This document shows positions 8,008 to 12,667 of a stretch of DNA of 64,000 nucleotides, in pieces. The DNA is from Chloropicon primus. Lineage: Eukaryota > Chlorophyta > Chloropicophyceae > Chloropicales > Chloropicaceae. How positions within the stretch are numbered: position 1 is the first letter of the stretch; every line of letters begins with the position of its first letter. Position numbers and translations under genes: made by a program. The stretch lies in NCBI GenBank assembly GCA_023205875.1, contig CP060757.1, positions 930,001-994,000 of the forward strand. Direction: 5' to 3'. The notes under the pieces were generated by a model. That model saw only the letters and a list, made by a program, of their open reading frames with translations. It searched no databases and had not been told where the DNA came from.

Positions 8008-8365
8008 CGAGAGGCGGGTCGTCTGTTCGAAAAACGAAGTATTATGTGCGCCAGCCAGGCCCCACAAAGGAAAAGAAAAAAAGCAGGAAAAGGTCGGGCG
8101 AGAGCTTAGCTGTACACTAGAGTGGTCCGCCACCACGACATGCTCCCTTCAACCCGGCCTGGCCCCCTGCCTCTCTGTTTTTAGGCTTCTAAACCCAAAC
8201 GAAAATTATACATTAGTCAGTTAACTAGAAGTCCTTCCCGCCCAAAGTCGACTTCTGAGTCGAGTCAGACAGCCAGCAAGCAGATCGAAGCCAGGCCAGG
8301 AGGGCGAACGCCGCTGCTCCTCTCGGCAAGAAAGGGGGCGTGGCGTCGCTCGACGGGCCCGGAGA
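8008..8365. other. Intergenic gap, 358 nt
   Basis: Between two plus-strand genes. The first half is AT-richer 3' flank of the unknown gene; the second half (from about 8225) is GC-rich leader of the exonuclease-CPBP gene. No gene or structured RNA recognised. Confidence 0.5.
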
Positions 8366-10141
8366 ATGACCCCATCCTCGCGGTTGGGGGGGCTTCATCC
8401 ACCAACGAAGGGGAGCGGCGTTGGAGCCCGGCCTCGCTGCTGCTGCTGCGAGGGAGGACGAGGGGGGAGGCTCTGTGTTGCCGCAGGGGCGGGGGGCAGG
8501 AGGAGGGCGGGGGCCTCGGGCGACCAGGGGGGTAAAGGGAAGCGCGAGTCCGGGGAGGAGGACGAGTTGACGACATTGCGGCGAACGCCCCGTTCTGTGA
8601 TGCGTTTTCCGTTTCAAAACTTTCAAAACTCTCCCCTCCGAGGGAGAAACGGAAGCACGCCGCGCGAGAAGGCCTGCACAATGCCCTTCGGGGAGAGGCG
8701 GTGGCCGCTCGGTGGGGAGGCCGGGGACGAGGTCGACGTACAGACGACGGCGGACGTGGAGGTGTGCGAGAGGTGGATCCGGGAGTTCAGGGAAAGCGGC
8801 AGGGATTGCGTGGGTTTGGACATTGAGTGGAAGGCGAATACCGTCAAGGGCCAGAGGCCGGAGCCTGTCGCGACGCTGCAGCTCGCGACGGAGACCAGCG
8901 CCCTGGTCCTCCAGGTGCTGTACTTCAGGCCGGGCGAGTGCGCCGGTCTCAGGGATCTCCTGGCGGACGAGACGGTGCTGAAGCTCGGTGTGGGGATCAA
9001 GGGAGACCTGCTGAAGCTGCTGAAAGACTGCAACTTGCACTGCGCGGGGGGCCTGGACCTCAGCAAGCATTTCAAGAGCACGCTTGGTCTCCGCATCAAG
9101 GAAGAGATCGGGCTCAAGCGGCTCGCAAAATTCGTTCTCGGGTTCGACTTGGACAAACCGAAGATGGTTTCGAGGTCGGACTGGTCGACAAGCAGCCTCG
9201 ACGAGGCGCAGATCAAGTACGCCGCCCTCGATGCGGTGGTCGCCTGCAAAATCTTCCAGAGGCTTAGAAGTTGCGACGACTTTGCCCGGTCTGCCATATC
9301 CCTGAGGACAAATTATTACCTGCGGAAAAGCTTTGCGAGCAGGAAGCTGAAGCAGCAAGGCTGGTCAAAACGCCTGCTCGTTTTCGGCTGCGTGTTCCTT
9401 CTCATCTGGTCGCCGTCCCTGGTGCTCGCTGGCTTCATGACGCCGAACCAAGTGCAGAGGGACGTGGTCTGCGCATTCTGGGGCTTGTGCAGCTTGCTGA
9501 AAACGGTTCAATTGTGGGGGACGGAGATGTGCAAGTACGACAAGCCCCTGAGCTCTTACGTGAAACCGGATGCCCAGGAGCTCTTTCAGGGCGTTTTGAC
9601 CGGCACCGCTCTGACGGGCTTGTTCTACCTGGCCCTGTGGTTCTTCGGGTTCGGAACGATCGCTCCCAGCCGTGTCGGTGGCGGGGCGGGCGTTCTCAGG
9701 GCGGCTGGTTTGGGGATTCTTTCCGGCTTCACCAAGGAGCTTTTGTTCAGGGGGGTCGTGCAAAAGGAGCTGGAGAGGGATCTCAAACCCGATGGGAAAG
9801 CGGCCTTGGTGCTCGGCCTGATTTTCGCCTCTGCACACTTGTCCCCGCACGGTTTCGTGGGGCTCGCGCTCCTTTCTCTGTGCCTGAGCGAAGGGAAAAA
9901 AGCTTTCGGGGGCTCCCTCTCGTACTCGATCGGGTTGCACTCCAGCCTCGTTGCGACCACGATGCTGGGCAGCAGTGCGTATGTCCAGACCTACCCTGCC
10001 CCGGTGTGGCTGGTAGGCAGTAGCGGCCAAAGTCCTCTCTTCCTGGAGGGAGCCCTCGGCATCGCTCTCCTGTCCGTGCTGCGCCTGGGCCTGCAAAACA
10101 AGAAGAGAAGGAAGAAGAGAAGGGCGAAGAAAAAGCGCTAG
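8366..10141 (+). CDS. DEDDy 3'-5' exonuclease fused to CPBP-type intramembrane protease domain
   Basis: 591 aa in one exon. Residues about 125-305 form an RNase D/WRN-type exonuclease: D152 and E154 in CVGLDIEWK (Exo I), D214 in GVGIKGD (Exo II), Y285 and D289 in KYAALDA (Exo III), so the DEDDy set is complete. From about residue 335 hydrophobic segments follow (near 336-356, 362-380, 405-428, 440-456, 480-505, 558-575). These carry CPBP/Rce1-like motifs: KELLFR at 457-462 (family EExxxR), FASAH at 487-491 (FxxxH) and H525 (motif 3). The tail is very basic. No stop, frameshift or obvious splice site separates the halves. ATGs at residues 79 and 106 are alternative starts; the first ~100 residues are low-complexity and may be a presequence. 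TGTAA follows at 10163. Biological role unknown. Confidence 0.85.
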   Translation: MTPSSRLGGLHPPTKGSGVGARPRCCCCEGGRGGRLCVAAGAGGRRRAGASGDQGGKGKRESGEEDELTTLRRTPRSVMRFPFQNFQNSPLRGRNGSTPREKACTMPFGERRWPLGGEAGDEVDVQTTADVEVCERWIREFRESGRDCVGLDIEWKANTVKGQRPEPVATLQLATETSALVLQVLYFRPGECAGLRDLLADETVLKLGVGIKGDLLKLLKDCNLHCAGGLDLSKHFKSTLGLRIKEEIGLKRLAKFVLGFDLDKPKMVSRSDWSTSSLDEAQIKYAALDAVVACKIFQRLRSCDDFARSAISLRTNYYLRKSFASRKLKQQGWSKRLLVFGCVFLLIWSPSLVLAGFMTPNQVQRDVVCAFWGLCSLLKTVQLWGTEMCKYDKPLSSYVKPDAQELFQGVLTGTALTGLFYLALWFFGFGTIAPSRVGGGAGVLRAAGLGILSGFTKELLFRGVVQKELERDLKPDGKAALVLGLIFASAHLSPHGFVGLALLSLCLSEGKKAFGGSLSYSIGLHSSLVATTMLGSSAYVQTYPAPVWLVGSSGQSPLFLEGALGIALLSVLRLGLQNKKRRKKRRAKKKR

Positions 10142-10197: not shown

Positions 10198-11122
10198 TTA
10201 CCAGAATCCCATGGAGCTGTAGCCCCCGTCGACGGCAATAATTTGGCCCGTCACGAAGGAGGCGGCCGGCATCGAAAGGAAAGCGATCACGTCCGCGACT
10301 TCCTGTGGTTCGCCTGTTCTTCCCATGGGCGTCCTCTCCAAAACTTCTCTCTTGTAGCTCTCGTTCTTCAAGACCTCGTTGGCCAGGGGCGTGTTGGTGT
10401 ACCTGCAGGGGAAACGACACGCCGAAGGACACCAGCAAGGAATGGAATGGAATGATGTAGGTCAGCACACGCGTGGTCAAGCAAGCAAGGAAGGGATGGA
10501 TGGATTGGATTGAATTGGATGGATGAAATCATGGCTCGTACCAAGGTGCGACGGCGTTGCACCTGATTCCAAGGGGCGCCCACTCGCAAGCCAGTATTTT
10601 TACCAGCTGATTCATGCCCCCCTTGGACATGCCGTACAACGAGCCTGTTTTCATGGTCGTCGGCCCTCCAGCCACCGACGAGTTCATCACGACGCTCGCT
10701 CTCCCGGACTTCTTCAGCAGAGGCAAGCAGAGCTGGCTCACGTGAAAAGTGGATTCGAGGTTGACTGTCATGAGCTTGTGGTAATCGTCCAGAGAGAACT
10801 CCTCGGTCGGTTTCCTGATGTTGATTCCCACGTTGTTCACGAGAACGTCGAGGTGGCCGAAAGTTTCCCCCACCTTCTCCACCAGCGCCTTCCTTTCCTC
10901 TGGACAGGACAGATCGTACGCACCCCCGTGGACTGCGTACCCCTTGGCCCCCCACGTTTCGAGGCGGTCCTCGACGTCACTCTGGTGCCTCGAACACGTG
11001 AACACTTCCGCTCCGAGCGAACCAAACGCGTCTACCGTCGCCTTCCCTATCCCTTTCGTTCCTCCGGTGACCAGGCACCTCATCCCTTTCATCGTGAACG
11101 CACCTCCACCCTCTCTCGCCAT
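10198..11122 (-). CDS. Tropinone-reductase-like SDR
   Basis: Two exons read on the minus strand, 11122-10542 and 10402-10198; intron 10403-10541 (139 nt, GTACGA donor, TGCAG acceptor, phase 2); 261 aa. Glycine motif [14 protein letters not shown] (NNAG position), catalytic Ser in NSSVAGG, and YGMSKGG supplies Tyr and Lys. The splice joins NAVAPW to YTNTPLAN, matching the substrate-loop region of tropinone-reductase-like proteins, which supports the junction. C-terminal signature [12 protein letters not shown]. An ATG at 11212 would extend the N-terminus by 30 residues; 11122 is preferred because the fold begins soon after. Substrate unknown. Diverges from ATG3 with 190 nt between starts. Confidence 0.87.
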
Positions 11123-11312
11123 CTTGCCCTCACCGATCGCGATCGTCTCCGTCGTCGCGCTCCCCTCCGTCTGTTTCCTTGCTTCGCTCCCAGAGGGGAA
11201 CGACGATTTCATATTCCATTGAGAGCTCCGTCGTTCGTTCGAGACCGGAGAGGGAGAGGGGACGGGAGACGACGACGAGAGGGAAGGAAGACGAGAGGGA
11301 GTGCGAACGAAG

Positions 11313-12667
11313 ATGCATAACTTAAGGCACAACATCCATAACGTGTACAAGTCTGCCGCGGAGACTTTGTTGCCGGTCAGGTCGTCCTCAGCCTTTAAGG
11401 TAAGAGCAAAAAAAATTTGTCCATGCCAAACTCCCTTCGCTTTTGCCGTGATGAGAATGTCCCAGAGCAATGCCCTCGTGTCCGTGGACTGACCAGTTCC
11501 TTTGACTTTCCGCTCCCCGCTGGGTCTGGACGTGTTGCTCGCGCGCAGGAGAAGGGGGTCCTGACGCCGGAGGAGTTCGTAGCAGCGGGGGACTTCCTCG
11601 TGGGTGCTTGCCCAACGTAAGTCGCTTCACCCTTCTCTCTCTCTCCACATCTCTCTCCACGTCTCTCTCTCCGCATCGCCCTCCACCCTCCTCGCCGTGG
11701 TGCTCCCCGCTGACCCTTTTTCTCTCCTCTTTGGCGGCTTTGAAGCTGGTCGTGGGAAGCTGGTGAGGCAGGCAAGAAGCGTCCGTACCTGCCAGAGGAC
11801 AAGCAGTTCCTCGTGACGAGGAACATCCCGTGCCTGTGCCGCGCCAAGGACCTGCTCCAGGGGAAGATGGACGAGGAGATGGTGGAGCTGCAGGAGGGGC
11901 AGCAGGAGGCGGACGCGTGGGTCGCGACAGGTGGTTCGACGAACACGGAAGACATTGAGAAGATAGCAGACATGAGCCTTGGCGACGACGAGCCAAAGGA
12001 AGCGGAGGCCGGCGAGAGTCAGGGAGGCGGCGAGGCCGAGGCGGCTGTGGAAGGAAAGCAGGAGGACCGGGGGGGCGAGGAGAGCGATTCCGATGACATT
12101 CCGGACATGGAGGACTTCGTGGTGGAGGAGGAAGACGATACGGTGACGATCAACCCGAGGACTGCAGTGAGCAGCTCGGACGCGCAGGAGGACGACAACA
12201 AGATTTTGAAGACCAGGACTTATGACATTTCCGTCACGTACGACAAGTACTACCAGACCCCGAGGTTCTGGCTTATTGGATACGATGAGTCCAGGCAGCT
12301 TTTGAAGCCTGAGCTCGCTTTGGGTGAGTCGCCGGCCTGCTTCGGCCCTTTCCCAGCCATCCCCCTTCGCACTTGACTGACGCCGGCCACCTGGTTTTGC
12401 CCTTCTTGTCTCCTCGCAGAGGACGTGAGCGCGGAGCACGCGGAAAAGACCGTGACGATCGACATGCACCCTCACATCCCCCTCTCCTCCGCGTCGATTC
12501 ACCCGTGCAAGCACGCCCACGTGATGAAGAAGCTGTTGGACAATCTCTCCGAGGGGGACAAAGAGCCCAGCGTGGAGCACTACCTGGTCATCTTCCTCAA
12601 GTTCATCGCCTCCATTGTGCCCACAATAGACTACGACTACACCATGGCGGCAGACATCGGGGGCTGA
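11313..12667 (+). CDS. ATG3: Autophagy E2-like enzyme ATG3
   Basis: Four exons: 11313-11399, 11549-11616, 11746-12323, 12420-12667; all introns GT-AG; 326 aa. ATG3 accepts ATG8 from ATG7 and transfers it to phosphatidylethanolamine. Seen: N-terminal amphipathic start, GACPTWSWEAGE (conserved CPTW region across the second intron), an acidic flexible insertion at about 110-180 ending in DMEDF, YDISVTYDKYYQTPRFWL, and the active-site HPC in ASIHPCKHAHVMKKL; C-terminal FLKFIASIVPTIDYDYTM. The splice joins restore family-conserved sequence at each junction. This is the most intron-rich gene here, equal with the homeodomain gene. TGTAA at 12777-12781. Confidence 0.95.

Follow-up and report, generated by a model that had tools for sequence, protein, structure and literature searches.

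To our knowledge, integral membrane proteins are rare among 3'-5' exonucleases. EXD2 is a precedent for a membrane-bound DEDDy nuclease, and the location of the human protein is disputed between the mitochondrial outer membrane and the matrix (PMC5876329; statements on published work here and below follow the excerpted text of the cited papers). In MmRce1, a type II CAAX protease, the catalytic residue is Glu140, and function is also impaired by mutating Glu141, His227 or Asn231 (PMC12067869). CPBP scaffolds have been described as well. SpdC (6u0o) is the CPBP scaffold of the SagB hydrolase (PMC10581084), and Arabidopsis BCM1 and BCM2 are CAAX-peptidase-annotated chloroplast membrane proteins described as scaffolds, which showed no CAAX protease activity when tested in yeast (PMC7083845). 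The gene considered here lies at 8366-10141 on the + strand of a window of 64,000 nucleotides from the chlorophyte Chloropicon primus (contig CP060757.1, positions 930,001 to 994,000). Since a DEDDy nuclease and a CPBP multi-pass domain stand in one frame, its product would be a membrane-bound nuclease. We lean towards reading the product as a DEDDy 3'-5' exonuclease tethered to a membrane, with the CPBP half as a non-proteolytic anchor or scaffold.

As the original prediction had it, the frame is open throughout its 591 codons in the open reading frame (ORF) listing, and an in-frame stop lies upstream at 8222. Another long frame of 377 aa runs on the - strand (8225-9358). Because other long frames occur, including on the opposite strand, the length of the ORF alone proves little, and it is the domain matches that carry the case for a fusion gene. 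The N-terminal half matches DNA_pol_A_exo1 (PF01612; E 4.2e-17, 62.9 bits against a curated cut-off of 23.6) and the C-terminal half matches the Rce1-like family (PF02517; E 3.2e-9, above the curated cut-off). The complete RNase D/WRN-type exonuclease that had been predicted was confirmed, with D152, E154, D214, Y285 and D289 at their places and invariant in 8 of 8 alignment rows, representing 7 distinct proteins. Judged by these residues, the N-terminal half is an intact WRN/EXD2-type DEDDy exonuclease site. Among solved structures, EXD2 is the top match by sequence (E 7.8e-17) with WRN nearly tied (2.3e-16), and WRN is ahead in the fold comparison. Additionally, there is 38% identity to a Riccia protein that carries a dsRNA-binding domain.

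A search of 5.8 billion proteins gave 7 matches, P0001-P0007. P0001, the NCBI record 'ribonuclease H-like protein [Chloropicon primus]' (486 aa), is the window protein from M106 onward, identical at 485 of 486 residues with E140D as the sole difference, and is the same gene as the ORF. Five environmental proteins, P0002-P0006, are 47-64% identical and, like P0001, contain both domains in the same order by Pfam. In P0007, a sixth environmental protein, the exonuclease is recognized by Pfam, PF02517 is not detected, and the C-terminal half aligns in eroded form. The architecture therefore counts 6 distinct proteins (C. primus and P0002-P0006, the six fusions below) and one eroded relative. A profile search with 7 rows returned the same 7 proteins together with three exonucleases for which no CPBP domain is listed; both protein searches scored about 8000 candidates sharing most words, and fusions elsewhere could be missed. 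P0002-P0007 would be chloropicophytes, and the fusion is probably a narrow, chloropicophyte invention. Genome scans covered the 17.58-Mb, 20-contig C. primus assembly, with the window on contig C4 (20 chromosomes and 17.40 Mb in the genome as published; PMC6731263). The fusion gene is one of at least 5 CPBP places and one of at least 6 PF01612 places, and appears to be single-copy. An artefact of annotation or assembly that makes two genes look like one frame is hardly credible, for the 591 codons run without a stop and need no splicing, and the second C. primus record and the five relatives share both the join and the conserved linker. The same records dispose of the assembly error near 9300-9400 against which the original prediction had cautioned.

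The description of the C-terminal half as a CPBP/Rce1-like membrane protease stood only in part. The multi-pass CPBP type is borne out by the PF02517 profile match together with a modelled eight-helix fold, but the protease is not: compared to MmRce1 (4cad, 13% identity), the Glu140 position is Lys and the Asn231 position is Val. Likewise, the three motifs had been placed correctly (K457-ELLFR, 487-491 and H525), but KELLFR is a broken EExxxR. Both the FxxxH His (H491) and the HxxxN His (H525) are present in C. primus. No meaningful match came from profile searches with the CPBP halves against PDB sequences, for which reason the fold comparison was used; an NCBIfam search gave weak partial matches only, far below the curated cut-offs.

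At the first Glu of EExxxR the six fusions (C. primus, then P0002 to P0006) read K, E, Q, E, Q and E, and all 118 other relatives have E. Its loss in C. primus, P0003 and P0005 takes at least 2 changes on a quick tree, all inside the 8-row fusion clade, a confinement with a hypergeometric p of 1.8e-4 when relatedness is ignored. The H525 position is kept in 117 of 118 other relatives and is R in P0005 and, within a gappy part of the alignment, in P0007 too. With Lys in place of the water-activating Glu, the CPBP half of C. primus should not act as a glutamic intramembrane protease, and activity of the Rce1 kind is, on this residue evidence, very unlikely in this species, while P0002, P0004 or P0006 may still have it. 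Since Val is found in most relatives, the Asn to Val change is probably older than the fusion, and the whole family of CPBP relatives may differ from Rce1 in mechanism. A bifunctional enzyme has also been considered. Where EExxxR is kept, the CPBP half would be an active intramembrane protease coupled to the nuclease, which it might set free, or whose ribonucleoprotein it might clear of other proteins, and C. primus would have lost this activity. The retention of both Glu, H491 and H525 in P0002, P0004 and P0006 favours it, as does the presence of the first Glu in all, and of the H525 position in nearly all, of the other relatives. Such an enzyme is nonetheless unlikely, given the three fusions without the first Glu, the reading HxxxV in place of HxxxN (RxxxV in P0005) with Val in all six, and the undetectable PF02517 of P0007.

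The closest kin of the CPBP half are stand-alone CPBP proteins, mostly of 270-300 aa and with cyanobacterial names (Richelia, Scytonema, Anabaena and others). These proteins can be aligned over the CPBP half, with which they also group; unlike the fusion, they have no listed nuclease domain and never depart from the first Glu of EExxxR. The kinship of the CPBP half is of the cyanobacterial type. A recent duplication of another C. primus CPBP gene was rejected, as tblastn matches to L001, L002, L003 and L005 all fell short of significance (best E 0.62). Read by eye, L001-L003 have full EExxxR, FxxxH and HxxxN motifs. L005 (G000:C20:6646-9999), a further CPBP gene, shows EExxxR and has an in-frame TAA inside the domain match, which is either an intron or a sign of a pseudogene.

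Residues 300-332 contain 8 K/R against 2 D/E, and K/R make up 12 of the last 15 residues. All odd loops together have 1 K/R, and the inner even loops 3, 1 and 0. By the positive-inside rule, this distribution would put both ends and the nuclease on the cytosol or stroma side. The cyanobacterial type of the anchor favours the plastid as the location. In the tethered nuclease favoured here, the WRN/EXD2-type half would use two metal ions to trim RNA or single-stranded DNA from the 3' end. The CPBP half of C. primus, without its water-activating Glu, would not be proteolytic, and its eight helices would serve as the anchor or scaffold that fixes the nuclease to the membrane through the conserved basic linker. 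This membrane would most likely be in the plastid, with the nuclease facing the stroma. Only tentatively, and as a possibility short of even, it is proposed that the protein is a plastid-membrane 3'-5' exonuclease, for which a cyanobacteria-derived intramembrane protease became a dedicated membrane seat at or after the fusion, the protease Glu being lost about twice while the nuclease was tightly constrained. If true, a site of organelle RNA or DNA decay would be fixed at the thylakoid or envelope.

An EXD2-like nuclease facing the cytosol, with its CPBP anchor in the mitochondrial outer membrane, endoplasmic reticulum (ER) or nuclear envelope and with RNA or DNA of the cytosol or nucleus as its substrate, is rather doubtful. 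It draws on the match to EXD2 given above and on the 486-aa annotated start, which lacks a clear transit peptide. The C-terminal KKKR of C. primus presumably fits the dilysine ER-retention pattern and the end of P0003 the KxKxx form, while the dilysine-type pattern is absent from P0002, P0004, P0005 and P0006. Human EXD2 itself, with one N-terminal transmembrane segment, has been assigned to the outer membrane of mitochondria (PMC5876329). The CPBP half, however, is nearest to a family with cyanobacterial names and not to the other C. primus CPBP genes.

Several observations weigh against a stromal nuclease on an inert plastid anchor. E458, R462 and H491 are invariant across the six fusions, and both Glu are kept in 3 of the 6 (P0002, P0004 and P0006) as well as in the fragments P0011 and P0012; the CPBP half may therefore do more than anchor. 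Decay after the fusion was rejected as a reading of the lost HxxxN Asn, since Val is common in the relatives. The hydropathy scan alone gives about 4 strongly hydrophobic stretches, the eight helices coming from structure models, and confidence in the full-length model is low over model residues 41-90 (pLDDT 51-63), a stretch that includes D152 and E154. The charge argument for topology draws mainly on the linker and tail, the inner even loops being poor in K/R. Both termini of MmRce1 are on the lumenal side (PMC12067869), which, transferred by homology, would leave the nuclease on the wrong side of the membrane, contrary to the charge argument. By residue composition only, no convincing transit peptide was found, and the three possible starts give different N-termini. 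Finally, no stand-alone algal or plant protein was found among the named CPBP relatives, 99 of the 118 carrying no name, and the CPBP half may stem from plastid descent or from a later cyanobacterial transfer.

As seen in Table 1, the features of the gene follow one another from a variable leader to a polybasic tail. The NCBI record begins at M106 and is shorter than the 591-aa ORF. P0003 and P0005 (2 of 6 among P0002-P0007) also have a Met where the motif MRFPFQ of residue 79 recurs, although the flanking sequence is unconserved. Its codon pattern has a single exact match across the C. primus genome, and a recurrent presequence or promoter motif was rejected on this ground. M79 is likely the true start or part of a conserved leader motif, and codons 1-78 may be an untranslated leader or a targeting piece. 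The leader is poorly conserved, with a mean pairwise identity of 0.21 for residues 1-78 and likewise for 79-123. In P0007, residues 68-76 (MGNALRRSR), just before the exonuclease, resemble what we take to be an N-myristoylation start; this is the one relative with an eroded CPBP half, and it could conceivably reach the membrane by another route.

Table 1. Features of the Chloropicon primus fusion gene (positions in the window)
Feature	Position	Strand	Evidence
N-terminal leader, residues 1-105	8366..8680	+	alternative starts M1 (8366), M79 (8600), M106 (8681, NCBI start)
DEDDy 3'-5' exonuclease domain, residues 124-303	8735..9274	+	PF01612 match 132-301
ExoI, D152 and E154 (DIEW)	8819..8827	+	identical in 8/8 rows
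ExoII, D214	9005..9007	+	identical in 8/8 rows
ExoIII, Y285 and D289 (YAALD)	9218..9232	+	identical in 8/8 rows
Basic linker joining both domains, residues 304-332	9275..9361	+	residues 304-338, mean pairwise identity 0.47, six fusions
CPBP/Rce1-like membrane domain, eight long helices (predicted), residues 333-590	9362..10135	+	PF02517 match 444-527
KELLFR, broken EExxxR, K457 replacing the catalytic Glu	9734..9751	+	alignment of fusions and relatives
FASAH, FxxxH motif with H491 (487-491)	9824..9838	+	H in 6/6 fusions and 118/118 relatives
H525-SSL-V529, HxxxN with Asn to Val	9938..9952	+	V in 6/6 fusions and 83/118 relatives; N in 7/118
Polybasic C-terminal tail, residues 577-591, 12/15 K/R	10094..10138	+	sequence

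Downstream, a convergent neighbour gene at 10529-11470 on the - strand is a short-chain dehydrogenase (PF00106, E 2.6e-44). At 11813-12664 on the + strand, two open pieces match Autophagy_act_C (PF03987, E 7.1e-15 and 3.6e-23) most strongly over profile positions 39-119 and 126-193, and are probably one ATG3/ATG10-type gene with an intron.

The original prediction knew each family separately but not this fusion, and no description of a DEDDy-CPBP fusion was found among the literature matches listed; the terms 'exonuclease' and 'CAAX' occur in neither of two Chloropicon genome papers. Through a natural fusion of a nuclease with a multi-pass domain, the role of a membrane-bound DEDDy nuclease can be tested directly within a single lineage. 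Were the CPBP half confirmed to be inactive, it would be a further case of a CPBP domain serving as a scaffold and not as a protease. Among the known systems, EXD2 differs in its single N-terminal transmembrane segment (PMC5876329), compared to the C-terminal anchor of eight predicted helices in the fusion, and WRN, by the molecule names of its structures, has its exonuclease joined to a helicase. SpdC and SagB are two separate bacterial proteins with peptidoglycan as target. For BCM1 and BCM2, which are likened to the fusion by description and not by sequence, the excerpted text mentions no nuclease (PMC7083845). Each of the two domains is known, and their fusion is a new architecture, present in one lineage as far as the searches reach.
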